A stretch of 47,747 nucleotides of DNA from Bacilli bacterium (lineage in GTDB: Bacteria > Bacillota_I > Bacilli_A > RF39 > UBA660): assembly GCA_017459425.1 (NCBI GenBank), contig JAFUCZ010000030.1, positions 147,651 to 195,397 on the forward strand, read 5' to 3'. Of this stretch, positions 1,333 through 26,790 are shown piece after piece. Numbering within the stretch: position 1 is the stretch's first letter; every line of letters starts with the position of its first letter. The notes below the pieces were generated by a model that did no database searches, had not been told where the DNA came from, and saw nothing but the letters and a program-made list of their open reading frames with translations. Position numbers and translations under genes: made by a program.

Positions 1333-2061
1333 ATGAGAAATTTATGTACATTTTGTGGTAAAGTGGTTGAAAAATCAGAATTAAAAGAAGATGAAGAAGG
1401 GAAGAAAGTTGCTTTAGTTAGACTTTCTCTTCCTAGAACAATAAATGGAAAGGAATCAGAGGAATTTATAGAATTTACAGCAAGAAATAAAATGGCAGAA
1501 AATATAGTTCAAATTGTTAATAAAGATGATGTGCTTGCTGTTAGAGGTAATCTTATTACTAATTCAGTTGATATAATGGGAACTAATATAAATAAATTGG
1601 AAGTTGTCCCTAGTCAAATATCTTTTTTGGATAAAGAAAAGGTTACTGATGAATTATATCAATCACAAGCAATATTAATTGGTAGATTGGTTAAAACACC
1701 TGAACTAACTACAACAGAAAGTGGTAAATCAGTTACTAATATAACACTAGCTGTTACTAGGGATGAAAAAAATGAAGAAGGTGTTTATGAAACAGATTTT
1801 ATAAATGTTTCTGCTTGGAATGGTTCTGCTAAAACTGTATCAGAGTATTGTAGAAAAGGTGACTTGATTGCGATAATAGGTTCATTTTATTCTAAGAAAA
1901 ATGAATATAAAGATGTTGAGTATGATACTCTAAATATTAGTGCTAATAAGATTTCATTTTTATCTACAAAAAGATATGATGAAGAACCAGAAAAAGAAGA
2001 AAAAACTACAAAAAACAAAAAAACTAAAGATAAAAAAGAATCAGAAATAGAGGTAGCATGA
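1333..2061 (+). CDS. ssb: Single-stranded DNA-binding protein with two OB folds
   Basis: This 242-residue protein carries two SSB-like OB domains in one chain. The first (about residues 1-95) includes FCGKVVEKSEL and AVRGNL. The second (about 105-210) is much closer to canonical SSB: AILIGRLVKTPELTTTESGK, then TDFINVSAWNGSAKTVSEYC and KGDLIAIIGSFYSKK. A lysine-rich linker follows. The tail ends SEIEVA and lacks the DDDIPF-type tip that docks partner proteins in chromosomal SSB. Bacterial SSB usually has about 110-180 residues and one OB fold. ICE-encoded SSB commonly coats transferred single strands in the recipient. The RBS is AGTGGAGG, 8 bases upstream of the ATG. Confidence 0.88.
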   Translation: MRNLCTFCGKVVEKSELKEDEEGKKVALVRLSLPRTINGKESEEFIEFTARNKMAENIVQIVNKDDVLAVRGNLITNSVDIMGTNINKLEVVPSQISFLDKEKVTDELYQSQAILIGRLVKTPELTTTESGKSVTNITLAVTRDEKNEEGVYETDFINVSAWNGSAKTVSEYCRKGDLIAIIGSFYSKKNEYKDVEYDTLNISANKISFLSTKRYDEEPEKEEKTTKNKKTKDKKESEIEVA

Positions 2062-2645: not shown

Positions 2646-3081
2646 GTCAGATGTTAGAATTGTAACATCGAAAAAAGGTTTTAAGAAATTAAGCAACTAT
2701 GTTAAAAATTATTTAAAAGATAAAAATGAAGATTATAATTTGTTAGAACATTTGGATTTTAAAGTTGAAAATAGTTATGAAAAATACTTTGGTTGGAATG
2801 GTATAAAATGGTATGACGGTTGTGAAGGATATGAAGAAGTTACTGCTATTGTAGAAGGACTTAGCAAATTAGCTGAAGAAGATTATTCATATCGTTTCGC
2901 TCGTATTGGAGAAAGTTATGACGATTATGAAACCTATTCTTATGAATCCGAACAGGAAGAAGAACAAGATTTAGAGTATCCAAGTTTTATAAGAGAATTT
3001 GATGATGAATATACTGCAAGCTTTATAAATCAAATGGATGAAAAAAATAATCTTAATCAGGTTTGTGAGGTGTCTGTATGA
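2635..3081 (+). CDS. Conserved mobile-element protein (MGYRSDVRIV type)
   Basis: I place the start at 2635 because AAAGGAGG lies seven bases upstream. An in-frame ATG at 2599 lies deeper inside the upstream gene and has no such site. The 148-residue protein begins MGYRSDVRIVTSKKGFKKL, which resembles small uncharacterised proteins of phages and ICEs. A short motif YEKYFGWNGIKWYDGCEGYE is followed by a very acidic, Tyr-rich C-terminal half. It overlaps the previous gene by 11 bases and the next by four. Function unknown. Confidence 0.75.
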   Translation: MGYRSDVRIVTSKKGFKKLSNYVKNYLKDKNEDYNLLEHLDFKVENSYEKYFGWNGIKWYDGCEGYEEVTAIVEGLSKLAEEDYSYRFARIGESYDDYETYSYESEQEEEQDLEYPSFIREFDDEYTASFINQMDEKNNLNQVCEVSV

Positions 3082-3641
3082 AATTATTAACGAAAGAAAT
3101 TGAGGAAAAGTTCAAGAAATATCCTCTCGGTTCTCAAGATGGTAAAGGTGGTAATGCTGAAGTATTAGTTAAGTATTTTAATCCTTGTGGTTCTGGTACA
3201 TGGTTAATTACTGAGGCTGAAAAACAAGAAGATGGGGATTACTTACTATATGGATATTGCCATATCTTTGAATGGGAATGGGGAACAGTAATGTTAAGTG
3301 AACTTGAAAATCTTAAATTACCATTTGGGCTTAAAGTAGAAAGAGATTTGTATTCTGCTAATTGTAAATTCATTAAGGATTATGTTGATTATCCTTATGA
3401 TAATAAGAAAATTGCTTTAAGATCTGGTTATTATTTTTTAGATGTTGAAAAGGATAGGATTCCTTTCTTTGATAAATTAGTAAAGACTAATGACAAAATA
3501 AATTATAAAGGTGAAGAATTAGATTTATATGATGCTCATGATTATGAAACATCTAAAATGGTTGATGATCTTTTTGGTAATAGCATGGGTTATTATATTG
3601 ATGATTATATTGTAAAAAATGACGAATGTATTGAAATATAG
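3078..3641 (+). CDS. DUF2958 domain protein
   Basis: The first about 105 residues match the DUF2958 pattern: MKLLTKEIEEKFKKYPLGSQ, FNPCGSGTWLITEAEKQEDG, YGYCHIFEWEWGTVMLSELE. This domain recurs in conjugative elements and plasmids but has no established activity. About 80 further residues form an unrecognised C-terminal part, ending ECIEI. The gene overlaps the preceding one by four bases and ends 11 bases before the pilin gene, at the edge of the secretion block. Confidence 0.8.
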   Translation: MKLLTKEIEEKFKKYPLGSQDGKGGNAEVLVKYFNPCGSGTWLITEAEKQEDGDYLLYGYCHIFEWEWGTVMLSELENLKLPFGLKVERDLYSANCKFIKDYVDYPYDNKKIALRSGYYFLDVEKDRIPFFDKLVKTNDKINYKGEELDLYDAHDYETSKMVDDLFGNSMGYYIDDYIVKNDECIEI

Positions 3642-5690: not shown

Positions 5691-5972
5691 ATGTATATTA
5701 CTATGCAAACAATCAAAAGAAATCTTGGATTATTTAATTTACAATTGATGGATATTATTATTGGTGGAATAGTAGGTATTATATTTACTATTTTATTTTT
5801 ACTTAAAGCATATACAATAGGATTTGTTATACTATCACTTGGTGCATTAGCACTCGTACCAATGAATTTTAGTAAATGTGATAGATTATATAAATTAGTT
5901 ATTTTATTTTCTAGGTATATGTTTAATACTAAGGAATATGTATATTTTTCTAGTGATAATATAGATGTATAA
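5691..5972 (+). CDS. VirB3/PrgI-family conjugation protein
   Basis: The 93-residue product has two adjacent membrane helices (about residues 22-40 and 42-58). The C-terminus is typical of PrgI/VirB3 proteins, with aromatic residues around YMFNTKEYVYF. Such proteins cooperate with the VirB4 ATPase and sit at the inner membrane. It overlaps the next gene, which encodes VirB4, by eight bases, a common arrangement for this pair. The RBS is AGGAGG. Confidence 0.82.
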   Translation: MYITMQTIKRNLGLFNLQLMDIIIGGIVGIIFTILFLLKAYTIGFVILSLGALALVPMNFSKCDRLYKLVILFSRYMFNTKEYVYFSSDNIDV

Positions 5973-8475
5973 AATAGTTAAATTACCACCAAAAGATAAA
6001 TTAAAAAGTATTCAAGATAAAGAATTTAAGCTTATTAGAAAACTTAAAAGTAAGAAAAAGCAAAACTATATCAAAAAGAATAAATTAAAAAAGAAAATTG
6101 GTAATTCTCAAATATTTACCAATATTAAAAACATTGATGATAATGGTTTAATAACATTAAAAACAGGTCAACTGGCTATATTTTACAGACTACAACCAAT
6201 TGACCTTTCACTCACTAATAAAAGTGAACAAGAATTATTTTATCATACTTTAGCTCGAGTTTATAGACTTCCTATAACAATTAAGGCATATAAGTTTGAT
6301 GAAAAGATAAATCTAAATGCAAATAAAGAAAATTATCAAAAATTGATTGAAAAGTATAGAAATAATAAATCTAGATATGATATACTTTCTAACAATAAGG
6401 AATTCATTGATGTAATTGAACAAGAAAACATTACATCAGCAAGTTCTTATTACTTTTCTTTAATTGCTAAAAACAAAGAAGAATTAGAAAAATATAAGGA
6501 AGAGTTTGAAAGACTTTGTCTATCTACTACTCCTAAACTTGAAATTGCTAACATAACTAATAAAAAACATTTATTAAAAATATTTTGTAATATGTATTTT
6601 TCTAATGTTAATTTGGATCAATTAATATATTATGATTTATTTGATTTAATAGTACCAATGAATTTAAGAGAAACACCATCTCAATTAAAGTTTGATGATA
6701 AGGTTGTTCAAATGGTTACTATTAAAAATTATCCATTGTTTTTAGAAGGTGGATTTTTAGATAGAATCGTTAATATCCCTAATATTAATGTATCTATGAC
6801 AATTAATGAGAGTATTGATTCATCCAAAATACTTAATATTTTAAATGCTAATTTTAAATCAGTTTTGGCAGATTATAATACAAGTAAGAATTTAAGTGAT
6901 GTTACTGAAATGCAATCACTTATGAATAACTATAAATTATTAATTGAGCAAATATCAGCAAATGATGAAAAGATTAAAGAAGTATCAATTGTAATGGCTG
7001 TAACTGGTTCTAAAAAACAAAGAGAAGAAACTATTAAGGAAATTAAAAGAAATGCTGAAATATATCAGATTAAAGTTGATGTTCCTAAGCTAAGACAAAT
7101 GGAATTATGGCAAAGTTATGATTTATCTAATAGAAATGTAAAAGATTATCCTATGTTTGTACCAACTCTAACATTTGCAAGTAGTTTTCCTTTTAGTGAA
7201 ATCTATCATAATGATTCAAATGGTTGGTTAATAGGAGAAGATGCTGGATATGGATTACCTGCATTCTTTGATCCATTTTATTTAAATAATGAAAGAACTA
7301 GCCATAATATTAGTATAGTAGGTTCTACTGGTTGTGGTAAGTCTTATTTAATGAAATTATTAGTATGTAATGAATTTGCTAGAGGTACTAAGATATTCTT
7401 ATTCGATATTGAAAATGAGTATCAAAAATTTGTTGAAAGAAATAATGGAGAATATATCGATTTATCAAGCAAGAGTTTAATTAATCCATTACAAGTTAGG
7501 TTTGTTCAAACTAATGACGAAGATGATGAAAATACACATAATATATTATCTAAACATCTTGGTTTTCTAGAAACATTTTTTACTACTGTATTTCAAAATA
7601 TTACAGAAAAAGAACTTGTTGTTTTGCTTGATATAGTAGAAAAATTCTATAAGACATTTGGAATAACTAAAAATACTACACTAGAACAGTTTGAAAGATT
7701 TAATTCTCGTGATTATCCTATTTTTTCTGAATTATATGATTATCTAATAGAATATAAGAAAAAGGTAACAAACAAAGAAGAATCAAGAATATTAGTTAAT
7801 ATTGAGGTATTACTTAAAAGATTAATTATTGGACAAGACGCCAATTTATTTAATGGATATACAACAATAGATTTGTCTAATGATTTAATTGCTTTTAATT
7901 TACAAGAATTGATGTTTAATTCTAGTAGAAGATTAATTAATACTCAAATGATTAATTTACTAACATTCTTAAATAATGAGATCGTATCTAATAAAAAGAA
8001 TAATGATACAAAAGATGATAAAAAAAGAGGACTAATTGTAGTAGATGAATTTCATAGTTTTATAGATGAAGAAAATCCTACATTATTAAAATACTTTGCA
8101 AGTCTAACTAGAAAATTAAGAAAATATAGTTATGGAATGGTACTTGGTACTCAATCAATACAAGACTTAGTTGGTACTGCTCAGATACTTAGAAATGCAA
8201 CAGCTATTTTTAATAACTGTCAATATCAATTTACTGGTATGCTTAAAGATGATGATTTACAAGCACTTGAGAAAATATATGCTAATAATAAATTAACTGA
8301 AACACAAAAAGCATTTTTGACAAGGTGTAATCAAGGACAATTCTTAATTAATATTACTAATAAGCAAAGACTTAGAATTAATGTATATGCAACACCTTTA
8401 GAAACATATTATATGGGTGAGTCTGAAGATAAGTTTAATTATAAGGAAAATTATGAAAAAGATTCTACTGATTAA
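5965..8475 (+). CDS. VirB4/TraE-type conjugation ATPase
   Basis: This 836-residue ATPase energises the type IV secretion channel. The N-terminal half (about 1-420) is the VirB4 region that contacts the membrane complex. The C-terminal half is a RecA-like motor. Walker A is GSTGCGKS at residues 453-460, followed by FLFDIENEYQKF. Walker B is LIVVDEFHSF near residue 690, followed by the sensor-like LGTQSIQDL. The N-terminal 45 residues are unusually lysine-rich. Length is normal for the family. The M23 hydrolase gene starts inside its 3' end. Confidence 0.95.
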   Translation: MYKIVKLPPKDKLKSIQDKEFKLIRKLKSKKKQNYIKKNKLKKKIGNSQIFTNIKNIDDNGLITLKTGQLAIFYRLQPIDLSLTNKSEQELFYHTLARVYRLPITIKAYKFDEKINLNANKENYQKLIEKYRNNKSRYDILSNNKEFIDVIEQENITSASSYYFSLIAKNKEELEKYKEEFERLCLSTTPKLEIANITNKKHLLKIFCNMYFSNVNLDQLIYYDLFDLIVPMNLRETPSQLKFDDKVVQMVTIKNYPLFLEGGFLDRIVNIPNINVSMTINESIDSSKILNILNANFKSVLADYNTSKNLSDVTEMQSLMNNYKLLIEQISANDEKIKEVSIVMAVTGSKKQREETIKEIKRNAEIYQIKVDVPKLRQMELWQSYDLSNRNVKDYPMFVPTLTFASSFPFSEIYHNDSNGWLIGEDAGYGLPAFFDPFYLNNERTSHNISIVGSTGCGKSYLMKLLVCNEFARGTKIFLFDIENEYQKFVERNNGEYIDLSSKSLINPLQVRFVQTNDEDDENTHNILSKHLGFLETFFTTVFQNITEKELVVLLDIVEKFYKTFGITKNTTLEQFERFNSRDYPIFSELYDYLIEYKKKVTNKEESRILVNIEVLLKRLIIGQDANLFNGYTTIDLSNDLIAFNLQELMFNSSRRLINTQMINLLTFLNNEIVSNKKNNDTKDDKKRGLIVVDEFHSFIDEENPTLLKYFASLTRKLRKYSYGMVLGTQSIQDLVGTAQILRNATAIFNNCQYQFTGMLKDDDLQALEKIYANNKLTETQKAFLTRCNQGQFLINITNKQRLRINVYATPLETYYMGESEDKFNYKENYEKDSTD

Positions 8476-9451
8476 ACTGTCAATTGTGTTTCTAATATTA
8501 GGATTAATTGGTTTTATATTAATCACTATTATTGCTATTGTTGGTTATTCTACGGGTTCAGAATATCAAAAACAATTACTTTCTGAAATGAGAGAGAATT
8601 CTACTGTTATAAATAATCAAATATATGCAGATAGATATAGGGCATTATTAAATAATCATTTAAAGAAAGATGGTTATGTTACTCTTGAAAGAATAGTATA
8701 TTATTTGCAAAGAACTAATAATATACTTGATACATCTAAACTTAGTTATGAAAAATGGGAAAAAGCATATCTAAAAAATGTTGATTCAGAAAAGAAACAA
8801 ATGATTCCTATTAAAACAATTTGTAAAGATTTAAAAAAAGATAATACACTACCTGAATATACTATTAAAAGTGGTAGGAATGATGATGGTGTAGAAATTG
8901 ATAAAATAGATTTATGTTATATTAATGATAAGAGTGTGGCAGATTCTAATGATTATACAGATGTATTCTTAGAACTGCCTTTTTCTTTTCCGTTGAAAAA
9001 ATCACAAGATTTTACTGTAACATCTATTGTTTTTGAATCTAGAGAACTTGATTTTACTAGTGATGGAACAAAGACTGTAGATCAACATTCTGGTTGGGAT
9101 TTTGCTGTTCCTGTTGGAACAAATGTATATAGTATTTGTGATGGAACAGTAACATCTATTATAAATACACAAGATAATGATTTAAATTATTATGAAAGCT
9201 ATAATAAAACGGGTAATTACATAATAGTTGCTTGTGATAATGGATTAAGTGCTAATTACTTTCATTTAAAGTATAAATCTACACCTGATACTATTAAAGT
9301 TGGAACACATATAAAAAAAGGTGAAAAGATTGCTAAAACATCTACCACAGGAACAAGTACAGGTCCTCATTTACATTTAGGATTGAAAGATGCTAATGGT
9401 ACTAATTTAGATGCTTTAGCATATATAAATTTATTTAATTGGGAGGAATGA
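8453..9451 (+). CDS. M23 family cell-wall endopeptidase of the conjugation system
   Basis: The start at 8453 follows AAGGA by six bases. A further in-frame ATG at 8417 lacks such a site. The 332-residue protein has one N-terminal membrane helix (about 5-30) and then a mostly unrecognised region. A LytM/M23 peptidase domain occupies about residues 200-325. Zinc ligands are visible as HSGWDFAVP (H and D) and GTSTGPHLHLGL (HxH). These enzymes cut peptide cross-links in peptidoglycan and open the wall for the conjugation channel. No lytic transglycosylase domain is seen, although many Gram-positive VirB1-like proteins pair one with a peptidase. Confidence 0.9.
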   Translation: MKKILLIKLSIVFLILGLIGFILITIIAIVGYSTGSEYQKQLLSEMRENSTVINNQIYADRYRALLNNHLKKDGYVTLERIVYYLQRTNNILDTSKLSYEKWEKAYLKNVDSEKKQMIPIKTICKDLKKDNTLPEYTIKSGRNDDGVEIDKIDLCYINDKSVADSNDYTDVFLELPFSFPLKKSQDFTVTSIVFESRELDFTSDGTKTVDQHSGWDFAVPVGTNVYSICDGTVTSIINTQDNDLNYYESYNKTGNYIIVACDNGLSANYFHLKYKSTPDTIKVGTHIKKGEKIAKTSTTGTSTGPHLHLGLKDANGTNLDALAYINLFNWEE

Positions 9452-9453
9452 TT

Positions 9454-9810
9454 ATGGAAAATAAAGTTTATATAATACACGATAATTGTATTTGGGATGA
9501 TGAGTCGTGTCCTAAGTTAGTTTGTGCTACTACTAATTTAGAAATAGCAAAAGAATTATTAAAAAAATACATAGTTGAAGTTAAAAATAGTATAGATTTT
9601 GATTCGATGAATTTAGTAAATGAAGACATTGAATCTGACTATGATGATATACAAGAAGAGTGTTGGATTTATTCTGAATCTGACACTCATTTTTCTTTAT
9701 ATCAAAGTGGTAATTATAATTCTAATCATATAAGTATTAATATAGAACAATTACCATTATGTAATGATTTAGAAAATGAATATGAGATTAATAATGAAAA
9801 TAGTTTATAA
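9454..9810 (+). CDS. Small acidic hypothetical protein
   Basis: The 118-residue soluble acidic protein starts at 9454, eight bases after GGGAGG. In-frame ATG 9448 abuts the RBS and is less likely. It begins MENKVYIIHDNCIWDDESCP and has the appearance of the short phage/ICE proteins that carry an ATTNLEIAKELL segment. The C-terminus is NENSL. No function can be assigned. It lies two bases after the M23 gene and starts the run of small accessory genes. Confidence 0.7.
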   Translation: MENKVYIIHDNCIWDDESCPKLVCATTNLEIAKELLKKYIVEVKNSIDFDSMNLVNEDIESDYDDIQEECWIYSESDTHFSLYQSGNYNSNHISINIEQLPLCNDLENEYEINNENSL

Positions 9811-11536: not shown

Positions 11537-11929
11537 ATGGATAAATTGTTATTTGAATATCAACTTGATTATAAGAATGCTGAAAAATCATTTTTTAATA
11601 AATTGGATTATTGTAAAGATATGGTATCATCTGGTGATTTAACATTAAAGGAATTTCTAAATTTAGGTTTTAATAATTCATATTTGTTAAAGAAATCAGA
11701 TTCAGAATGGTCTTTTAATATTGGATGGAAAAATTCTGATAAGTGTATTAGTGAATATGGTCAATATTCACAAGATTTATCAGAAGATATGATGAATATT
11801 AAAGTAATTGGTGCAGGTGATCCTTATGAGGATTTAGATGGTTACTATTGTATGGATATATATTGTGTTAATGAAAAAGACTATGAATTATTTGATAAAG
11901 AATTAGAAAAAGATAATTTAGAATTATAA
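11537..11929 (+). CDS. Hypothetical protein with acidic C-terminal tag (NLEL)
   Basis: The 130-residue acidic soluble protein has a strong upstream site (AGGAGGT, 11 bases before the ATG). No family is recognised. The last residues are EKDNLEL. This is the first of seven products in this stretch that end [D/N/S]-[hydrophobic or Tyr]-Glu-[Leu/Met]. Confidence 0.68.
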   Translation: MDKLLFEYQLDYKNAEKSFFNKLDYCKDMVSSGDLTLKEFLNLGFNNSYLLKKSDSEWSFNIGWKNSDKCISEYGQYSQDLSEDMMNIKVIGAGDPYEDLDGYYCMDIYCVNEKDYELFDKELEKDNLEL

Positions 11930-11942
11930 AGGAGGAATTTTT

Positions 11943-12896
11943 TTGAGTATATTACAAGAATATGAAAAAATTAAAAAACATATAGGCAAAGAAAAATGGG
12001 ATAGTATTGAAACATATATTAATAATCATCATCCAGAATTAACATTAGATAGGATTATATATAATGCTGATAATTGGATTGATTTTGAAAAATGGTTTTA
12101 TAGTGAAATGAAATTAATTAGTGTTAATGTTTTAAGTACTTGGAAAAGTGATTATGATGATTTTAGAGCACTTGCAGAAATTAAAAAAGGAAATAATGAT
12201 TTAGGGACAATTATTGCTAGCCATGATGAAAACACTATTAGAAATCTTACAGGCAATATTAAAAATTCTTTATCGGATACAGAGCTTAAAAATGCTTTTG
12301 CTGTATTAATAAGTTCTTCATTTGATTATTACTCAGAATTACCTAAAATATCAAATTGTTCCAAATTACTACAAAGTATTTATGATGATGTATGCCAATC
12401 AGATGCCACTATGTGTCACATTACAGAAGAAGATTGGGAAGATTATTATATTGATGATTATTCTATAGAAGACATAAAAATATTAGAAGAAGAAATCAAG
12501 AAATATAAATTAGAAGAAGTTGTATGTCTTGACGAAGGAGAATACAAAATTATTGGATATGGTGATTTAGAAACTCGCTTTATAGATGATAGAACTGTTA
12601 ATCATGAATATGTTGAAGAACCTTATTATGATACTGTAACCGATTTGAAAGATTTAAATGAAAAAGGTTCTTTTACAGTAGCTCGAGTTGTAAAGAATGA
12701 TAAATGTGTTGAATTACATTATCGTGATGGTAAGGCATTCGTAGAATATGGTGTTAAGGTTGATGAAACAACTTGGGAAAATGAAATAGAGTATGTTGAT
12801 TGGTTTAGACTTGATATGAAAGAAAATGATATATCGAAAAAATTATGGAATTTATATGATGATTATTTCGGAATGGAGGAATCGTATGAAATGTAA
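11943..12896 (+). CDS. Hypothetical protein with acidic C-terminal tag (SYEM)
   Basis: The 317-residue protein uses a TTG start eight bases after AAGGAGG. It begins SILQEYEKIKKHIGKEKWDS. The central part contains EEDWEDYYIDDYSIEDIKIL. A conserved-looking beta-rich C-terminal part includes SFTVARVVKNDKCVELHYRD. It ends EESYEM. The next gene starts inside its last codons. I know similar opening sequences from uncharacterised conjugative-element proteins, but not their role. Confidence 0.72.
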   Translation: MSILQEYEKIKKHIGKEKWDSIETYINNHHPELTLDRIIYNADNWIDFEKWFYSEMKLISVNVLSTWKSDYDDFRALAEIKKGNNDLGTIIASHDENTIRNLTGNIKNSLSDTELKNAFAVLISSSFDYYSELPKISNCSKLLQSIYDDVCQSDATMCHITEEDWEDYYIDDYSIEDIKILEEEIKKYKLEEVVCLDEGEYKIIGYGDLETRFIDDRTVNHEYVEEPYYDTVTDLKDLNEKGSFTVARVVKNDKCVELHYRDGKAFVEYGVKVDETTWENEIEYVDWFRLDMKENDISKKLWNLYDDYFGMEESYEM

Positions 12897-13485
12897 TAAA
12901 GTTTATACTGTTTGTTATGACACCTTAGATGTATTTAATACTAAGAAAGAAGCATCTAATTTCTATCGTACTTGTTATTATATGAGTGAAGGAGCAGAAC
13001 ATGAGAGATATGCTTCTATCTTAATTGATTTGCAGGAACAAAATATAGGTATGGATAATGTTAGTGATAGTTGTAATAAAATAAGTATTAAAACAAAAGA
13101 AGGATATGAGAATTTTATAAAAATAGATTTAGGAGAATATATATCAATACCTGATACTATTAAATTTTATGAAGATATAGTTAATCCAATATTAGAAATT
13201 TCTGAAGAATATGAAATTAAATATAATAATAAAATACCATTTGAGGCTTTTGGCTCAGATATTGATTATAATATGATTAGTTTTTCTGAGTTCTATAAAG
13301 AAGTATTAGATAAATTAAATTATAAAATAAATACTATTAAAACAGATGATTTATCTGATGGTAAGTATAATTTGGTGGTAAATGATACTGAATTAAAGGT
13401 ATGTGCTTGGGACAAGATAGAAGATGTAATTGAAAATGTACAAACATTACTTACTCTATCTAAACAAGAAGATTTAGAAATGTAG
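12886..13485 (+). CDS. Conserved ICE protein of unknown function with C-terminal tag (DLEM)
   Basis: The start at 12886 follows ATGGAGGA by six bases. The 199-residue protein opens with KVYTVCYDTLDVFNTKKEAS and then YYMSEGAEHERYASILIDL. That pattern recurs in uncharacterised proteins of Firmicutes ICEs. It ends QEDLEM. It overlaps the previous gene by 11 bases. No enzymatic motif is visible. Confidence 0.75.
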   Translation: MKCNKVYTVCYDTLDVFNTKKEASNFYRTCYYMSEGAEHERYASILIDLQEQNIGMDNVSDSCNKISIKTKEGYENFIKIDLGEYISIPDTIKFYEDIVNPILEISEEYEIKYNNKIPFEAFGSDIDYNMISFSEFYKEVLDKLNYKINTIKTDDLSDGKYNLVVNDTELKVCAWDKIEDVIENVQTLLTLSKQEDLEM

Positions 13486-13490
13486 GAAGT

Positions 13491-13775
13491 ATGGAAAGTT
13501 ATATAAAAATAAAATCTTCTATATCACAGATGAAGGACAAGTTTAATAATTCAGATTCAAAATATTACTATATTAAATATTATTCCATTTGTAATAATAA
13601 TGTAGAAGATGATAATAGTATTGCTATATTTGATTGTTTAATAAGACATAATGAAATTGGTAATAAAAGTATTGAAAGAACTGCCCCATATACTTTTGAA
13701 TCATTAGAAAAAAATTTAAAAGATAAATATGATGAGTATGAAGTTATGCAACTTGAATCTGATATGGAATTGTAG
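13491..13775 (+). CDS. Small hypothetical protein with C-terminal tag (DMEL)
   Basis: The 94-residue acidic protein starts five bases after the previous stop. Its RBS is weak (TAGGAAG), so translation may depend on the upstream gene. The end is ESDMEL. No family is recognised. Confidence 0.62.
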   Translation: MESYIKIKSSISQMKDKFNNSDSKYYYIKYYSICNNNVEDDNSIAIFDCLIRHNEIGNKSIERTAPYTFESLEKNLKDKYDEYEVMQLESDMEL

Positions 13776-13783
13776 GTGATTAT

Positions 13784-14056
13784 GTGAATAATATAGATAT
13801 AAGAATAAACAACGGACGAACAATGAGAATTGTACAGACTGAATCTGATAAAAATAGAGAAGGCATTGGAATAGAAACACTAGACGAAAATGGTAATTTA
13901 GAAGAAAGAGAATTGATTGATGAAGGTGACTTTGTAATGTTAATCAATTATTATCGTTATATAAAAGATTACGATATAAAAAATAATTTTATAAATCGGA
14001 ATGGTATTAATAACGAAGAAGATTATTCTTATCAATCACAAGATATTGAATTATGA
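13784..14056 (+). CDS. Small hypothetical protein with C-terminal tag (DIEL)
   Basis: The 90-residue protein starts with GTG, preceded by TAGGTGA. An ATG two bases upstream is out of frame and stops at once. It includes the pattern GIGIETLDENGNLEERELI and ends SQDIEL. Its stop codon overlaps the ATG of the following frameshifted gene. Function unknown. Confidence 0.62.
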   Translation: MNNIDIRINNGRTMRIVQTESDKNREGIGIETLDENGNLEERELIDEGDFVMLINYYRYIKDYDIKNNFINRNGINNEEDYSYQSQDIEL

Positions 14057-14416
14057 AATTAAATAAAAAAAGAATATAAATTACTTGAAGAATATTTTGG
14101 TATATATGAAGACGAAAATGGTTATGAACTAGAACAATGGACTGATGGTGGAGTTGATATGCTTATCTATCTAAATAAAGATAGTGATAAAACATTATTA
14201 GAACAATTTAAAGACTATATCGAATATTTTGACATTGACGAGGAAATAGAATTATATAGAGAGAGCAAACAATATAGATCTATATTTACAATTAGGCAAT
14301 CATTAAATGATTTTGAAAAATGGCTTGATTGGTGTGAAGAAATATGCAAGGAATGGGATTTATTATCTAAAAATAAATCAAAGCAAGAAGATAAGGAGGA
14401 AGATATTGAGTTATGA
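14053..14416 (+). pseudogene. Hypothetical gene with a +1 shift at an A7 run near the start (tag DIEL)
   Basis: An ATG at 14053 overlaps the preceding stop (ATGA), the usual spacing here. After MKLNKK the frame hits a run of seven A (14065-14071). With seven A it terminates after eight codons. With six it continues as EYKLLEEYFGIYEDENGYEL through to 14416, giving 120 residues. The open frame itself has no good start codon until 14159, in the middle of the conserved-looking region. So this is either an indel, a sequencing error, or a gene rescued by polymerase slippage on A7. The downstream frame is intact and ends EEDIEL like its neighbours, which argues against old decay. Confidence 0.6.
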
Positions 14417-14685
14417 ATCTAACAGTTAATAAAATTGATTATATAAAATTATTATTTGAATTTTTATGTAAAACAGAGGGTTATGGAACTGAATATCAAT
14501 ATGCTTATATGATTTCAGTTCTCTTTTTTAATGGCGATATTAGATATGCTAATAGATTATGTGAGATAGTTGATTTGGATGAATTGGATGATTTTATATT
14601 GGATAGTGACTTTAATGGATTTATAAAATATGTTACGGAGCATTATTCGAGAATAAGGTTAAATAGAAGAAATGGAAATAAGTAA
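14413..14685 (+). CDS. Small hypothetical protein
   Basis: The 90-residue, helix-rich soluble protein has AAGGAGGA 13 bases upstream of the ATG. The first four bases of the gene (ATGA) overlap the stop of the gene before. It lacks the C-terminal tag of its neighbours and ends RRNGNK, inside the primase start, with a 14-base overlap. Function unknown. Confidence 0.65.
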   Translation: MNLTVNKIDYIKLLFEFLCKTEGYGTEYQYAYMISVLFFNGDIRYANRLCEIVDLDELDDFILDSDFNGFIKYVTEHYSRIRLNRRNGNK

Positions 14686-15634
14686 AGGTTATATTACTGA
14701 TTTAAAAAGTTATTTACCAGATTATTTATTAACTTATCATTCAATAAATTCAAGAAATTTTTTTAGATGTTTAAATCCTGAACATGAAGATAAAAATCCT
14801 AGTATGCACTATTCTGATAAATATAAAATTTGTAAATGTTTTTCTTGTAATGTTAGATATGATATATTTGATTTAATAAGATTAGATTATGGAATAGATA
14901 ATTTTCATGACCAAGTTGTTAAAGTAGCAGAATTATTTGGTAAAAAGAAACCACAGTTTAATTATCCAGAAAAAGATTATGTCATTGTAGATTATAATAG
15001 TTATTATATATTTTGTTTCAATCATAGATTTGAATCTGATTATTTACAATCTAGAGGAATAGATATGGACTTACAAGAAGAATACAATATTGGATATGAT
15101 CCTAAGAATGATAAAATAGTTTTTCCTATCAATGATAATTGTTTTTTTGCCCGTGGTACAAAAGATGATTCAAAAATAAAATCAAAAGGTAAAAGTTATT
15201 TATGGAACGAGAAGATACTAGATGATGTAGATTCTAATGACTTAATATATGTAACAGAAGGGATTATTGATTCATTATCTCTTCTAGCTATTGATAAGAA
15301 TATTAAAACGATAAGTCTAAATAGTTTATCAAATATTAAAAGATTATTTGAACTTTGTGAAGAAAAGAATTTAAATTGTAATTTTGTTTTAGCATTCGAC
15401 AACGATAGTGCTGGACTTAGTTATCAGAAAAAAGCTGAAGAGAAATTTATTGAATTAGGGATAAATAGTTTTCCAATTACTCTTATTTCTAATTTTAAAA
15501 GATCAAAGGATTTAAATGAAGCATTACTTGAAGATAAGGAATTATTAAAAAGAAACTTAGATTTTTTTGATACTCAGTTAAAAATTTTCATAGAAAAAAC
15601 AAATCAGAAAGATGAGGGTGATTATGAGTTATAG
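14672..15634 (+). CDS. CHC2/Toprim DNA primase
   Basis: The 320-residue protein resembles DnaG-type primases reduced to their first two parts. A zinc-ribbon-like start has C33, H38, C54, C56 and C59 (FRCLNPEH and CKCFSC). A Toprim domain has Glu in VTEG (residue 196) and the DxD pair in AFDND (243-245). No helicase-binding domain is present, so it is shorter than chromosomal DnaG (about 600 residues). Conjugative primases start lagging-strand synthesis on the incoming strand, and some (Sog, TraC) are known to be transported to the recipient. It ends GDYEL, matching the tag of the neighbouring small proteins. Confidence 0.88.
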   Translation: MEISKGYITDLKSYLPDYLLTYHSINSRNFFRCLNPEHEDKNPSMHYSDKYKICKCFSCNVRYDIFDLIRLDYGIDNFHDQVVKVAELFGKKKPQFNYPEKDYVIVDYNSYYIFCFNHRFESDYLQSRGIDMDLQEEYNIGYDPKNDKIVFPINDNCFFARGTKDDSKIKSKGKSYLWNEKILDDVDSNDLIYVTEGIIDSLSLLAIDKNIKTISLNSLSNIKRLFELCEEKNLNCNFVLAFDNDSAGLSYQKKAEEKFIELGINSFPITLISNFKRSKDLNEALLEDKELLKRNLDFFDTQLKIFIEKTNQKDEGDYEL

Positions 15635-16852: not shown

Positions 16853-18316
16853 ATGGCAAGTCCTAAAATAATATTTAGATCTAATCATAATTTTGCTGTT
16901 AATCATAAAGATAATAGATATAAAATATATTATGGTACTGATAAAAATGGTAAAGCAAGATACAAACAATGTAAGAATAAAGATGAGTATCAAATGGAAT
17001 TAGAAAAATATATTTGTGGTGATAATGGATTTTTTAAATATAGCAGGAATGAACAGAAGGCAAAAATATCTATGTTTGATTATTTTGTTGGTGCTAAAAA
17101 AAATGAAGATGTCATGAGAGAAAATAAAATGAAGAGAGAAGAAATGATGATGATGTCTAATGGTAAATATGCTACTGATGAAGATACTGAAAAAATGAAA
17201 ACTACTTGGAGAAAGTATTTAAAAAATTCTAATGTGCATCAAATGATTGTTTCATTTAATAATGATTATATAGATGAAAATATATCTCTAGATAAATTAC
17301 AATCTGATGTGACAACTAAAATACTACCATTATTTTTTAAGAAGTGTGGGTTTGTTAATCCTGAAAAAAATTTAGATTGGGTAGTTAGTCTTCATTGTGA
17401 TCAAGATAATTATCATTTTCATATTTGTTGTCTTGAAAAAAGAAAAAGTTATTTATCTTATAATAATAAACTAACATATAGAAATAAGTTAGAATTTACT
17501 GAGAAAGAAAATAATTTTTTCAAAAGACAAATTGTTCTAGACATTGAAAGAGAAAAATTATATACTCCTGCGCTTATAAAATTTAATAATGAATTAGATG
17601 AGTTTAGAAAATATTTTAACCCTAAAGAAAAAAATTTTATATTACTTAAATATAAGAATATTGATTTTGAAGAAAAAATATTACGATTAGGTTACCTGGT
17701 AAATAAAGTTAGGACAACCGATAAAAAATATATTAAATATAATTCACTACCTAAAAATGAAATAGGAAATGAAATTAGAAATTTAACTAAAGAAATTAGG
17801 AAGGAATTATTTAAAGAAGATATTTTAAAAGGACAAAAGAAAAATATTCTTAATAGTATAGATGAGATAAATAAAATATTTGAAAAAATTGATGCCGATA
17901 ATAATATATCTAATATTGGTTATGAATCAGCACTAGATAATAAACTTATTAAAGCTAAACTTGAAAAGAATGATAACTATGTTTTGAATGCTATTGTTAA
18001 TCATGCTTTATATAAAACTAGAAATATGTCTGATAAAATAAAAAATGATGAAATAACTTTTAATGATTTATTAAATGAGATTGCTCTTGATAATTTTAGA
18101 AAAGAATTGAATAAAGACATGTCCAATGTTGTTGTTATAAGAAAAACAAGGATCAAAATATTAAAAAATCATTTTAACAATATATATACTTCAAAAGATA
18201 ATGTAAGTAATTCAATTAAAAGATTGGAATATAATCATAGAACAGCAGAGGAACAATTTAGAGAATTATTTATTGATGATAATAACAAGGAAGCAAAAGC
18301 AATACTAGAAAGGTAA
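16853..18316 (+). CDS. MobP-type relaxase
   Basis: The 487-residue protein should nick oriT and lead the strand through the channel. The N-terminus (ASPKIIFRSNHN) and the segment KISMFDYFVGAKK resemble MobP2-type relaxases. The metal-binding histidine triad is present as HCDQDNYHFHICC (H181, H188, H190), with a preceding MIVSFNNDYI strand. I could not single out the catalytic Tyr; Y94, or one of the N-terminal tyrosines, is possible. The C-terminal about 280 residues are lysine-rich and helical. It ends AKAILER and lacks the acidic tag seen in the upstream genes. Confidence 0.85.
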   Translation: MASPKIIFRSNHNFAVNHKDNRYKIYYGTDKNGKARYKQCKNKDEYQMELEKYICGDNGFFKYSRNEQKAKISMFDYFVGAKKNEDVMRENKMKREEMMMMSNGKYATDEDTEKMKTTWRKYLKNSNVHQMIVSFNNDYIDENISLDKLQSDVTTKILPLFFKKCGFVNPEKNLDWVVSLHCDQDNYHFHICCLEKRKSYLSYNNKLTYRNKLEFTEKENNFFKRQIVLDIEREKLYTPALIKFNNELDEFRKYFNPKEKNFILLKYKNIDFEEKILRLGYLVNKVRTTDKKYIKYNSLPKNEIGNEIRNLTKEIRKELFKEDILKGQKKNILNSIDEINKIFEKIDADNNISNIGYESALDNKLIKAKLEKNDNYVLNAIVNHALYKTRNMSDKIKNDEITFNDLLNEIALDNFRKELNKDMSNVVVIRKTRIKILKNHFNNIYTSKDNVSNSIKRLEYNHRTAEEQFRELFIDDNNKEAKAILER

Positions 18317-18354
18317 ATTTTTCAATTTTCATAGTAAAAAAATAAAAAATAATG

Positions 18355-18360
18355 TATAAT
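18355..18360 (+). promoter_or_regulatory. Putative -10 box for the metalloprotease/SUKH cassette
   Basis: A perfect TATAAT lies 34 bases before the start of the HExxH gene, in the 78-base gap after the relaxase gene. No convincing -35 is seen at 17-base spacing, so this is a weak call. Together with the terminator at 20149-20174 it suggests the two-gene cassette has its own transcript. Confidence 0.45.
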
Positions 18361-18394
18361 TATATATAGGTAAACAATTTGTTGGAGGTAGTAT

Positions 18395-20198: not shown

Positions 20199-20783
20199 TT
20201 GAGTTATGAAATAGTAAGGAGTTTAAAATTAGATAAGAAAAACAAGAAATTATTTTTGACAACAGCATCCAATAATATATATCCTAAAAGTTTTTCTAAA
20301 TGGGAATATATGCCTAAGTGTGATGATTTTGTAGAAAAACAATTATCATTTTTTCATGGGATAATAGGTGGCTCTTATAAATTAGATTCTTGTAGTAATA
20401 CTAATTGGAGATATGCTTATGAAAAATTTTTGGAATACTGTTATGATAATAATATTAGTACATATGAATTATGGAATAATTCTTGTAGTGTTGATACACT
20501 ATCTAAATTAAAACCATATTATGATATATTTAATAATTTTGTTGAAGAAAAACATTCTGGTAAATATTATTTGGATTCAAATGTAGGTAATATAATAAAT
20601 ATAACAAGAAAAGGTTTTACATATTCTCCTTTTATAAGAAATGAAAATAAAAGAACTTATGATTATAAAAAGGCTTATATTAAAATAAAAAATTTAAGTG
20701 ATAAAACAATTAACGAATATAATATACGAATGGAGAAATTTGATAAAGTTAAAGATAATACAATGGAGGATCTAGTGTTATGA
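20199..20783 (+). CDS. Hypothetical protein upstream of the coupling protein
   Basis: The 194-residue soluble protein starts with TTG, ten bases after AGAGAGGAG. It has many Asn, Lys and Tyr residues and the segment FFHGIIGGSYKLDSCSNTNW. Its last residues, NTMEDLVL, overlap the coupling-protein start by four bases. No family is recognised. Position suggests an accessory of the VirD4 step. Confidence 0.65.
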   Translation: MSYEIVRSLKLDKKNKKLFLTTASNNIYPKSFSKWEYMPKCDDFVEKQLSFFHGIIGGSYKLDSCSNTNWRYAYEKFLEYCYDNNISTYELWNNSCSVDTLSKLKPYYDIFNNFVEEKHSGKYYLDSNVGNIINITRKGFTYSPFIRNENKRTYDYKKAYIKIKNLSDKTINEYNIRMEKFDKVKDNTMEDLVL

Positions 20784-23062
20784 ATAATGTAACATTGGAA
20801 ACTCCTTTTTATTTTTACATATTATTGGTTTTTTTACTTGCTTTTATAGTATTTATTATATATATAGAACCTAAAATAAATAAACATAAGATTAGTAATA
20901 AAAATGAGCATGGTAGCAGTAAATTTGCAGATTTTAAGGAAATTTCAAAGACTTTTGATAAGGAAGATTTACATAATATAAATAATGCTGGATTTCCTGT
21001 ATGGTTTGTTAAAAAGAATAAGGAATTTCAATCAGTTTATTTTGATAATAAAAGTCCTCATCATTTATTGGTTGGTTCTACTGGTAGTGGTAAATCAGTA
21101 ACTGTTGTTATACCTGAATGTTTAATGTTTGCTACAGCTAAAGAAAAAAAATCGGTTATTGTTACAGATCCAAAAGGTGAAATTTTTAGAGCAACTAGTA
21201 AAGTATTCAAAGATAATGGTTATGATGTTATAACTATTGATTTTAGAAACCCTAGACAATCTGTAAAAATAAACATTATGCAACCAATAATAGATGAATG
21301 GAAAAATCATTGCAGAAATTATAGTAATGCGATTTTCTATATTGCGTATTTATTTAAAAGGACCAAAATTGATTTTGATAAATATTTAGATGATAAGGAT
21401 TATAATAACGAAAACTATAAGATAATTAAACTTGAAAGTCATATAATGAATTTTATTGATGAAAATAGAATTAATATTAATAAAAGAATTAATTCAAGTA
21501 ATTTCTTTAGAAGTTCATTATTAAAACAAGAAAGAGGAGATAAGCCATTAAGAAGATTTTTGGATTCACTATCTTATAATCAAATAAGAGATAGGATTAA
21601 GAAATGCCTTAATCAAGCGTCAATACATGAGGCTGAGGCAAATAGATTAACAATATCATTAGCAGATTTAATATTTGCAGAAAAAGAAACTAAAGATCCA
21701 TTTTGGATTACTAGTAGCAAGAATTTGTTTATTGGAATTGTAGGAATATTTTTAGAGGACTTTAGAGATGGAAAAATTAAGGAAGGACAAATTAATATAG
21801 CAAGTGTGAAAAAATTTCAAAATTCATCATTAATAAAGGCTAATCAAACATATCTACAAAAGAATATCAATGATAGAAAATATGGCTGTTTATCAAAAGA
21901 TTATTTAACATCAATTTTATCATCTGCTGAAAATACATATAAGTCTGTTACTGCTGTATTTGGTTCTAAAACAAATATATTTGATGATTTAAATGTAGAA
22001 AATATAACAAGTGTAAGTGAATTTGAATTTACTCAATTAGGTAGGAAACCTACAGCACTTTTTATTATAGTACCAGATGAGGATAGGTCGTATTTTCAAC
22101 TTGTTACAATTATTATTGGTATATTATATAAAGATTTAGTAAAGTTTGCTAATATGCCTGAAAATAAAGGAACTCTGCCAGTAAAAATTGAATGGATACT
22201 TGATGAGTTTGCTAACTGTCCACCTTTAGATTCTATAGAGGCAATTGTATCAGTAGCTCGTAGTAGAGGTATGCAATTTCAATTCTTTATTCAAAGCTTT
22301 TCCCAATTAGAGCAGGTTTATGGAAAAGAAACTTCATCTATAATACAAGATAACTGTAGTCTAACATATCTTAAAACAAATAGTTATGATTGCGCATTAG
22401 CAATAAGTAATAAACTAGGAAAAGCAACAATAGAAACAAATTCTATTAGTGCTAGTACAGATCCATTTAAGATTGGTGCTAATCAAACTGTATCTTTATT
22501 GGGTAGAGAATTACTAACAGCAAACGAAATAATTAATTTGAAATATAAAACAATTATTTTTCCTACTGTATCTAATCCTATTTTTAGAGATACATATTTA
22601 TATAGTGATTTATTTCCTATGTATAAAGATTTAAAGCCTATTCGTAGAAAAGAAAATTTATTAAAAAAACTAACTGATAATTATTATACAGTTGACTTAA
22701 TGCGAAAAAATGAAGAAGACGAATTTAAAAGTAAAAATGAATCTGAATTTGAAAAGATAAATGATAATTTTGATCAAATTGTTACAAGTAAATCTAGGAA
22801 GAATGTTTATAGCAATAACAATGTATTAAAAATGGGGCAATTATTACTTAATAAAATGTCTTTTTCTAAACAAATTTCATTTCATAGTATGATTAATAAT
22901 AATGTATTTCAATTAAAAGTTGATAAATTATTAAATGGTAATGAAAAAAGAAAAATAATTAATGAATTAGATGAAAATACTACAGTTGAAATTATTCTTA
23001 ATATTCCTAAAAAGGAAACAATTATAAATATAAGAGAGAGTGACAAAATATGCGAAAAATAG
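20780..23062 (+). CDS. VirD4/TraG type IV coupling protein
   Basis: The 760-residue ATPase links the relaxosome to the secretion channel. There is one clear N-terminal membrane helix (about residues 8-30), fewer than the usual two. Walker A is GSTGSGKS at residues 99-106, followed by VVIPE. Then come TDPKGEIFR and a Walker B, EWILDEFANCPPLDS (about 470). The downstream SRGMQFQFFIQSFSQLEQVYG matches TraG/TraD proteins. The C-terminal about 120 residues are a charged specificity tail. It ends 13 bases inside the sortase gene. Confidence 0.93.
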   Translation: MNNVTLETPFYFYILLVFLLAFIVFIIYIEPKINKHKISNKNEHGSSKFADFKEISKTFDKEDLHNINNAGFPVWFVKKNKEFQSVYFDNKSPHHLLVGSTGSGKSVTVVIPECLMFATAKEKKSVIVTDPKGEIFRATSKVFKDNGYDVITIDFRNPRQSVKINIMQPIIDEWKNHCRNYSNAIFYIAYLFKRTKIDFDKYLDDKDYNNENYKIIKLESHIMNFIDENRININKRINSSNFFRSSLLKQERGDKPLRRFLDSLSYNQIRDRIKKCLNQASIHEAEANRLTISLADLIFAEKETKDPFWITSSKNLFIGIVGIFLEDFRDGKIKEGQINIASVKKFQNSSLIKANQTYLQKNINDRKYGCLSKDYLTSILSSAENTYKSVTAVFGSKTNIFDDLNVENITSVSEFEFTQLGRKPTALFIIVPDEDRSYFQLVTIIIGILYKDLVKFANMPENKGTLPVKIEWILDEFANCPPLDSIEAIVSVARSRGMQFQFFIQSFSQLEQVYGKETSSIIQDNCSLTYLKTNSYDCALAISNKLGKATIETNSISASTDPFKIGANQTVSLLGRELLTANEIINLKYKTIIFPTVSNPIFRDTYLYSDLFPMYKDLKPIRRKENLLKKLTDNYYTVDLMRKNEEDEFKSKNESEFEKINDNFDQIVTSKSRKNVYSNNNVLKMGQLLLNKMSFSKQISFHSMINNNVFQLKVDKLLNGNEKRKIINELDENTTVEIILNIPKKETIINIRESDKICEK

Positions 23063-25014: not shown

Positions 25015-26790
25015 ATGTACGAAAAAGTTGATACTTATATTTATAAAGTAGGTGAAACAAATTATAGAATAAAAATTCAAAAGGCTGATAAGAAAACAGG
25101 TATTAAATTAAATGTTTCACAAAACTGTAAATTACCTATAGAAGAAGTAATAAAGATAAGAGATAAATTGCTTAATGAATATGAAGATGCTGTCAAGCTG
25201 AAGTCTGCTGATTTACAAAAATCAGAAGTTGAAAGTGTTCCTATTGAAACTGTAAAAAAAGAAAAAAAGAAAAAGATTGCAAAATGGAAAAAGGTTGATA
25301 AATACATATATCAATCTGATAGAAATAAGTTTAAGATTTTAATTAAGAGAGGTACTAAAGGTGAACCGGCATTTTTTTATTTTTCTAAAGTTATTACTGG
25401 TACGATTGCAAATGCTCGTCATCTAAGAGATGTTAAATTAGCAGAATTAAAATTAGGTGAGGTTTTAACTGGGGATAAAGGTGCTATTAAATTTGAAGAT
25501 TTTATTAAAATATTTTTAAAGGAACATTATGCTACTAAAAGTCCTACTACTAAAGCAAGTGTTGTTTCTAAATTAAACCATCATGTATTGCCATTTTTGG
25601 GCAAGTATAAGTTAAAACAGATAGATGCTTTACTTCTAACTAAATTACTTAATAAGGTTTCTGATAGTAATAAATATGTAGGTGGAAAAGCAAGAGTACA
25701 AACTAATGAAAAAATATCATCTACTACAGCAAATTGTGTTTATAGAGTATTAAGAAATGTATTTAATCGTGCTATTGCATGGGGATTTATTAGAGATAAT
25801 CCTATTTTAAGAGTTCCAGCTCCATCTATTGATAAGGTTAAAAAAGTAATATTTACATTAGAAGATTTTACTGAGGTTATTAATTTAATAAAGAAAGAAC
25901 CTATCGAGGATCAATGCCTTTATGCAATTATTATTTGTACTGGTTTTAGAAGAGGAGAATTAGTAGCACTTCATCTTGATGATATAAACTTTGAAAATAA
26001 AGAATTATCTGTTAATAGAGATATTGTTAGAGATGAATTAAATCATACAATAATTGAAAAGAAACCTAAAACTTCTGATAGTATAAGAGATGTTCCTATT
26101 CCTGATTTTTGTATTCAAATAATAAGAGATTATCTTGATTGGAGAAGCAGAAAGATTGAGGGATTAAAATTAAAAAATCCTAATTATGAGGAAAAGGAAA
26201 ATTTATTTTTAAGTCGTAATGGTGATTTGATGCGACCAGAGTATCCTGCTAATCATTGGAAAGATTTTGTTAAAAAGAATAATTTAAAAAATGTTACTCT
26301 ACATGGATTAAGACATAGTTACTGTACATTGCAAATAAATGAAAATTCTGGATTAGGACTTAATGAAGTACAAGAATTAATGGGACATTCTCAAACAACT
26401 ACAACTTTTCATTATAGTCATTCTAATAAGAATAAAATTAAAAATGCTGTTTCGGTATTTGAAAAAATACAAGATGGTAAAAGTTTTGGTTTAAAAGAAG
26501 TTTTATCTGTATGTACTGGAAGAAAATATGCTTCTAAAACAGCAATAATGGATATATTAGATTATGTTGTTCCTAGTAGTAATTTATCTATTACTGAAAA
26601 AATGGATAAATGTAGAGATATTATATATAACAAATATCCTAAATTAGCAGATATAAGCGATAATGGTATTAATATAAATAATGTATTTGATTGGTTAGAT
26701 GAATTAGAACAACAATATGGATCTTCTTTTTTTATCGAACAATCTAATGAATTAGAAATTCAATCTGCAATTGAAATTGAAAAAATCTAA
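25015..26790 (+). CDS. Tyrosine recombinase (integrase) of the element
   Basis: The 591-residue integrase has two similar N-terminal arm-binding-like domains (KVDTYIYKVGETNYRIKIQK and KVDKYIYQSDRNKFKILIKR, about 1-60 and 92-155). A SAM-like core-binding domain (about 165-270) follows. The catalytic domain has R312 (TGFRRGEL), a Lys in KPKTSDSIRD, H430 and R433 (HGLRHS), H458 (LMGHSQ) and the nucleophile Y467 (HYSHSN). About 120 further residues follow the active Tyr, longer than usual for Tn916-like integrases (about 400 in total). It should catalyse integration into and excision from a tRNA-Glu site. A tRNA gene lies 82 bases downstream. Confidence 0.95.
   Translation: MYEKVDTYIYKVGETNYRIKIQKADKKTGIKLNVSQNCKLPIEEVIKIRDKLLNEYEDAVKLKSADLQKSEVESVPIETVKKEKKKKIAKWKKVDKYIYQSDRNKFKILIKRGTKGEPAFFYFSKVITGTIANARHLRDVKLAELKLGEVLTGDKGAIKFEDFIKIFLKEHYATKSPTTKASVVSKLNHHVLPFLGKYKLKQIDALLLTKLLNKVSDSNKYVGGKARVQTNEKISSTTANCVYRVLRNVFNRAIAWGFIRDNPILRVPAPSIDKVKKVIFTLEDFTEVINLIKKEPIEDQCLYAIIICTGFRRGELVALHLDDINFENKELSVNRDIVRDELNHTIIEKKPKTSDSIRDVPIPDFCIQIIRDYLDWRSRKIEGLKLKNPNYEEKENLFLSRNGDLMRPEYPANHWKDFVKKNNLKNVTLHGLRHSYCTLQINENSGLGLNEVQELMGHSQTTTTFHYSHSNKNKIKNAVSVFEKIQDGKSFGLKEVLSVCTGRKYASKTAIMDILDYVVPSSNLSITEKMDKCRDIIYNKYPKLADISDNGININNVFDWLDELEQQYGSSFFIEQSNELEIQSAIEIEKI

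Follow-up and report, generated by a model that had tools for sequence, protein, structure and literature searches.

Why should a run of neighbouring genes encode otherwise unrelated proteins that nearly all finish on the same kind of four residues? This question is raised by the operon at positions 11537-15634 of a 47,747-nucleotide stretch of Bacilli bacterium DNA (contig JAFUCZ010000030.1; hereafter the window), whose left 27 kb constitute an integrative conjugative element (ICE) encoding a VirB4-type ATPase, an M23 peptidase, a relaxase, a VirD4-type coupling protein and a tyrosine integrase. The shared ending, called the tag below, is a real, terminal and peptide-level feature that is confined to this ICE and its relatives, specific to each element and absent from the channel proteins, and it probably serves as an address for the transfer machinery that the element itself encodes.

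An earlier note on this DNA had described the endings NLEL, SYEM, DLEM, DMEL, DIEL, DIEL and DYEL on proteins with no other similarity, had suggested a DUF2958 protein as a further case and had remarked that the channel proteins and the relaxase lack the motif; all of these observations held when the window was analysed again. The strict ending [DNS]-[LIMY]-E-[LM] closes 7 of the 8 successive proteins of the operon, each at the expected stop, and these seven proteins fall into seven different sequence families, which rules out a single common ancestor. The primase is the only one of the seven above the Pfam cut-off (Toprim_2, 2.2e-12, plus a CHC2 zinc finger). The DUF2958 protein (PF11171, E 1.5e-15) ends ECIEI, VirB4 ends STD, VirD4 ends CEK and the relaxase ends AILER, without a -PhiE[LIM] tag (Phi, a hydrophobic or aromatic residue). 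A search of named genome contigs returned only one near-identical copy of the element (L046, 96% DNA identity). None of the seven tails is lost in it; the changes they show are silent or conservative, with SYEM to SCEM as the least conservative.

A search of 385 genomes of the order identified the ICE primase in seven more genomes, all belonging to the same family and one of them having two copies, and a search for the relaxase in 386 genomes of the family was positive in 33 genomes, giving 41 loci in all. Around these related loci, candidate cargo proteins ended NLEI, SMEL, GFEL, VIEL, EIEI, DYEL, DFEL, DLDM or DIEL. Taking as genes all open reading frames (ORFs) of at least 60 aa that passed a simple overlap filter, we compared the tag rates of these ICEs with those of a background of 513 ORFs. 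The broad ending Phi-[E/D]-[L/I/M/R] was found in 4/513 background proteins, a rate at which the probability of seven tagged proteins out of eight is 1.4e-14. Proteins ending Phi[E/D][LIM] amounted to 93/1028 ICE ORFs versus 3/513 in the background (p 7e-14), and still to 85/986 when the window was excluded (p 5e-13), while Phi[E/D]R ends were counted in 30/1028 ICE ORFs versus 1/513. Counted by families, again excluding the window, at least one tagged member was found in 45/320 ICE families versus 4/456 background families (p 2e-14). Chance as the cause of the shared ending is ruled out by this enrichment and by the 7/8 statistics. The residues that precede the ending are also unusual: between -4 and -10, tagged proteins have D/E at 38% of sites versus 14% in the background.

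The two checks that the earlier note had proposed gave concordant results: the ending was kept by homologues across ICEs and was rare in chromosomal proteins, the strict motif being found in 0/161 ORFs of the source genome's own chromosome and PhiE[LIM] in 1/161. Six stretches that are prophage-like or otherwise outside ICEs contained no tagged protein among 160 ORFs. When 296 genomes of the class were searched with the relaxase, the element turned up in its own family only, and the single match to DUF4313 in the phylum lay at a locus without a common tail of this kind. No common tail was seen in CD1115-type VirD4 plasmids (Clostridioides, Terrisporobacter) or in one Mycoplasmatota plasmid, and viral contigs searched with the primase contained no relative.

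Seven related ICEs (G534C69, G124C10, G480C24, G352C13, G495C2, G073C13 and G521C10) use a second ending, -Phi-E-R or more precisely -[M/L/I/F]-E-R, as in EEMER, DELER, EIER and DFER. The two types, referred to below as -ER and -EL, are almost perfectly separated between elements, with 26 R and 0 LIM endings among the tagged proteins of the -ER ICEs and 4 R and 93 LIM endings in all other ICEs (p 9e-23). Both types are found within a single genome bin, as in G073 (-ER on C13, -EL on C25) and G534 (-ER on C69, -EL on C61); the genomes are metagenome bins, with contamination rated at 6% for G534 and 1% for G073 and G093. Since one bin can hold both tag types, the tags cannot be explained by a factor of the host that recognises a single code. 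In G093, a second mobile element (L212, G093:C3:135000-154999, positions 16952-19337) has proteins ending DREER, SWER and DMER, and the other ICE of that genome uses -EL ends.

Homologous bodies carry different tails depending on the element. Within the ICE SSB family, one ICE group has the tails DLDM or ELEM, -ER elements have EMER, the G368 group has ELEK and G073C25 has NDMPF; NELER also occurs among SSB homologues of related ICEs. For DUF4313 proteins the tails are DIEL or NDMEL as against DELER, QEMER or NEMDR, and the family of the window protein starting at 11943 ends SYEM or VIEL versus DELER, DEFER, EQYER or DNYER in -ER type ICEs. In these genomes the chromosomal SSBs finish on DDLPF or DNFLD, as against DLDM or EMER for the ICE copies. 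The macrodomain proteins of ICEs finish on VFEL, and relatives elsewhere that are 57-60% identical stop short of these residues. Homologous bodies (macrodomain proteins and SSB) have thus gained the tag in ICEs. As a separate observation, the chromosomal SSBs of the source genome (L185) and of several relatives (L187, L178, L186, L180, L182, L188) have SIDDNFLD or -LE in place of the near-universal end DDxPF, and other relatives retain DDLPF.

Could the tails be a by-product of the DNA, imposed by the Shine-Dalgarno sequence or start codon of the next gene lying over the 3' end? This holds for parts of three window tails, those with stops at 12896, 14416 and 15634, and 42/118 tagged genes overlap the following gene. 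However, a gap of more than 40 nt separates 37/118 tagged genes from the following gene, a 2100-aa protein ending DNMER stops 302 nt before it, and related elements show two exclusive peptide types. Reading by eye, we found that the tails at 11929, 13485, 13775 and 14056 do not contain the next gene's Shine-Dalgarno sequence. The tail codons vary as well, glutamate being encoded by GAA or GAG, aspartate by GAT and leucine by TTA, TTG, CTA, CTT or CTC. The motif is moreover locked in position: at successive offsets from the C-terminus it was counted 90, 26, 17 and then 2-7 times in non-core ORFs of -EL ICEs, and 26, 1, 0, 1 and 0 times in -ER ICEs. The mixed codons, the position lock and the 37 genes remote from a neighbour support the earlier proposal that it is the peptide, rather than a signal in the DNA, that is under selection. 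Overlap with a ribosome-binding site or start codon is refuted as the sole or general cause by the codon variation and the distant genes, and we regard such a DNA-level artefact as extremely improbable.

Tagged proteins of known families include SSB, proteins with a ParB N-terminal domain, DnaD-like/HTH_36 proteins, DUF4313, the primase and DUF2958, together with a 2100-aa SNF2 helicase, an AbiEii-like protein, a macrodomain protein and, in two elements (G368 and G409), the integrase. An ArdC antirestriction/MPTase protein ends FEYER, which is off-type for its -EL element, and perhaps belongs to the tagged set. The known tagged proteins, among which ArdC is counted only as a perhaps, act on incoming DNA or on its establishment. 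Tags were found on 4/246 genes for the channel, type IV coupling protein, relaxase and primase versus 119/782 other ICE genes. Giant proteins beside VirD4 can be tagged too (L208, 1715-8104, 2129 aa, EELER; L207, 12667-19641, 2324 aa, YEIDM).

Since the code is element-specific, its reader should be encoded by the element and be present in all types, which makes VirD4 the natural candidate. The VirD4 proteins of -ER ICEs form one clade with 100% support. At positions 289, 314 and 315, which lie in a stretch between Walker A and Walker B that aligns with Cag5, VirD4 of -EL ICEs has a basic residue at the first two and N, Q or S at the third, and that of the four -ER ICEs has Q, S and D, as if these substitutions had been fitted to accommodate arginine. 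Two IMG/VR contigs that were not part of the derivation of this rule agreed with it. On L208, the giant protein that ends EELER adjoins a VirD4 of the -ER type, with ASDLLYG at 314-315; on L206, proteins that end DIEI and NEL adjoin a VirD4 of the -EL type with a matching 314-315 pattern. Substrate recruitment is assigned to the VirD4 all-alpha domain in reviews (PMC12624023). VirD4 is thus most likely the receptor, as far as can be judged from such comparisons.

We consider it rather probable that the ending is a C-terminal sorting signal for translocation of proteins to the recipient. The signal would consist of acidic residues, a hydrophobic or aromatic residue, E or D and then L, I or M (R in one ICE type), with a free carboxyl end, and it would mark cytosolic ICE proteins as cargo of that ICE's own conjugation machine. 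The region of the VirD4 all-alpha domain would most likely bind the tail, and the cargo would then pass through the type IV channel into the recipient together with the relaxase-DNA complex. Once in the recipient, SSB, primase, ParB, the large helicase and small anti-defence or establishment proteins of unknown function could act immediately. Chances are about even that this amounts to a private address system, in which each element lineage labels its establishment and anti-defence proteins with a short C-terminal code (-EL, -ER or a variant) read only by its own coupling protein. The earlier note had named a translocation signal among several options, and this option has gained from element-specific tags that track the VirD4 clade and from families matching those translocated by F-type systems; translocation itself and its receptor are still what we infer.

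Several findings weigh against this reading. Known VirB/D4 signals are positively charged and not acidic. Relaxases, which are obligatorily coupled to VirD4, are mostly untagged, the strict motif is present on only about 14-19% of non-core ICE ORFs, and some related loci (for example G220 and G186) have few or no tags. ICE components are inherited together, and the match between tag type and VirD4 is a correlation that comes largely from one -ER clade. VirB4 also differs between the two types, at more columns than VirD4, so that the VirD4 assignment is not proven; a charge switch in VirD4 alone was rejected as proof of the receptor, since several columns fit, yet VirB4 has more. In addition, a study of plasmid R388 reported that ArdC had to be expressed by recipients but not by donors (PMC7213743), and homologues of tagged families therefore need not be delivered.

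If proteins are not exported, the tails might instead gather them at a hub in the donor (VirD4, VirB4 or the relaxosome) and thereby couple DNA processing to transfer. Such docking would account equally well for tags that are specific to each element and for their absence from channel proteins, and SSB, the primase, ParB and the DnaD-like protein all act on DNA; but the macrodomain and AbiEii-like proteins, possibly ArdC, and the integrases of G368 and G409 are tagged as well, and some of these would be more useful in a recipient, which leaves docking without export rather unlikely in our view. The tails could also be C-degrons that hold the cargo at low levels until transfer, an option that the earlier note had raised and that has become less likely now that ICEs with different tags are seen together in bin G073 and again in bin G534. 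Recognition by proteases typically involves hydrophobic residues at a free C-terminus; a host protease would however mean one code per host, whereas single bins hold both -EL and -ER, and the -ER form, a glutamate followed by a terminal arginine, is unlike known C-degrons. A host-specific degron was rejected on the co-occurrence of both types in one bin and on a sequence that is also unlike the ssrA-like AA-type end, and degradation tags in general seem improbable to us. More improbable again is that the tails copy the acidic SSB C-terminus (SSB-Ct, DDIPF) and thereby recruit, or compete for, host SSB-binding proteins. ICE SSBs do bear the tag at the SSB-Ct position, and one of them ends NDMPF (G073C25), but the -PF end is absent from the tails, free-standing enzymes are tagged, and tag type is independent of the host SSB-Ct, as hosts with DDLPF and hosts with DNFLD each carry -EL and -ER elements. 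Mimicry of the SSB-Ct was rejected because the tags have no terminal P-F and do not match the SSB-Ct type of the host.

Delivery of proteins by Gram-positive-type conjugation is nearly undocumented, and the open-access papers searched yielded no defined signal for it. Among the closest parallels to the proposed sorting signal is F-type conjugation: pED208 translocates SSB, ParB1, ParB2 and PsiB via TraD (PMC8406263), and F-type translocation signals are C-terminal or internal (PMC11288057). SSB and ParB families, element-encoded cargo and a coupling-protein gate would be common to both systems; in contrast, the F/pED208 signals are heterogeneous and promiscuous between systems, the accessible text of these papers (PMC8406263, PMC11288057) reports no common short C-terminal motif, and the ICE tag is the same throughout an element but changes from one element to another. 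The ICE set also overlaps the polyvalent proteins of conjugative elements, which are believed to accompany the DNA into the recipient, in containing SNF2 helicase and ArdC/MPTase proteins, but a common transport tag is not reported for them in the accessible text (PMC5512222). XVIPCD of the Xanthomonadales type IV secretion system is likewise a shared module on unrelated cargo with VirD4 all-alpha as proposed reader (PMC12624023); it is, however, a folded domain on toxins, whereas the tag of these Gram-positive-type ICEs comprises some four residues and sits on establishment proteins.

Like general C-terminal signals of type IV secretion systems, the tag sits at the extreme C-terminus of unrelated proteins (45 tagged families outside the window). 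The VirB/D4 signals of VirE2, VirF and VirD2 are also short and C-terminal, but arginine-rich, whereas the tag is acidic with a fixed terminal residue. The tag may bear some likeness to the Legionella Dot/Icm E-block, which combines a glutamate-rich stretch with a hydrophobic residue near the C-terminus, and it shows acidic enrichment at -4 to -10 and a hydrophobic residue at -3; the E-block is nevertheless looser and lies further upstream, its effectors go to eukaryotes via DotM and IcmSW, and no Dot/Icm genes were identified here. The tag shares an acidic tail and a terminal hydrophobic residue with the SSB-Ct, but it lacks PF, is found on many non-SSB proteins and is element-specific.

A four-residue code with two exclusive types offers a ready-made swap test of export. 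If the reading as a private address system is true, each of two ICEs sharing a cell would send out no proteins but its own, along with its own DNA, and the code would reveal delivered proteins of unknown function straight from sequence, turning many unknown small ICE proteins into ranked delivery candidates against recipient defences. It would also explain why the ends of ICE SSBs and macrodomain proteins differ from those of chromosomal copies.

Table 1. Features of the ICE in the window, with their C-terminal ends
Feature	Coordinates	Strand	C-terminal end	Remarks
SSB	1333..2061	+	ESEIEVA	tag-like plus extra residues
DUF2958 protein	3078..3641	+	tag CIEI	homologues end EEIEI, KEYEL, KDFEI
VirB4-type ATPase	5965..8475	+	untagged	
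M23 peptidase (channel-associated wall hydrolase)	8417..9451	+	untagged	
130-aa candidate cargo protein	11537..11929	+	tag NLEL (stop 11929)	function unknown; no Pfam match
317-aa candidate cargo protein	11943..12896	+	tag SYEM (stop 12896)	homologues in -ER type ICEs end DELER, DEFER, EQYER, DNYER
219-aa ORF as listed	12826..13485	+	tag DLEM (stop 13485)	
94-aa candidate cargo protein	13491..13775	+	tag DMEL (stop 13775)	G355 homologue ends SKLEL
90-aa candidate cargo protein	13784..14056	+	tag DIEL (stop 14056)	DMEL in L046
Candidate cargo protein	14159..14416	+	tag DIEL (stop 14416)	3' part of longer gene
90-aa protein within tagged operon	14413..14685	+	untagged, NGNK	
ICE primase (CHC2 zinc finger + Toprim)	14672..15634	+	tag DYEL	homologues end SEIEL, GIEIG, DFEIG
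Relaxase	16853..18316	+	AILER, no -PhiE[LIM] tag	weak PF03432
194-aa candidate cargo protein	20199..20783	+	MEDLVL	family members end NMEL, GFEL
VirD4-type coupling protein	20780..23062	+	untagged	proposed tag receptor; PF02534, 6e-55
VirD4 residues R289, K314, N315	21644..21724	+		between Walker A and Walker B
Tyrosine integrase, right side of ICE	25015..26790	+	untagged, EIEKI	

The source genome also has a second locus (C25:40000-59000, L030) with VirB4-like and VirD4-like ATPases and 0 tagged proteins. Within the ICE of the window, the 242-aa SSB contains two SSB (OB-fold) stretches in one protein (Pfam). For the ORF listed from 12826, the ATG at 12886 is a start with a good Shine-Dalgarno sequence, located within the tail of the upstream gene. 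The gene at 14053-14416 starts with the ATG at 14053; in the window it carries a frame-shift within a poly-A run that leaves the tail unaffected, and L046 holds an intact 120-aa version (9383-9745). The small untagged protein at 14413-14685 could be an adaptor; several related ICEs also have a protein of 74-83 aa, mostly untagged, just upstream of the primase. Finally, the members of the integrase family in G368 and G409 end DGLEL.

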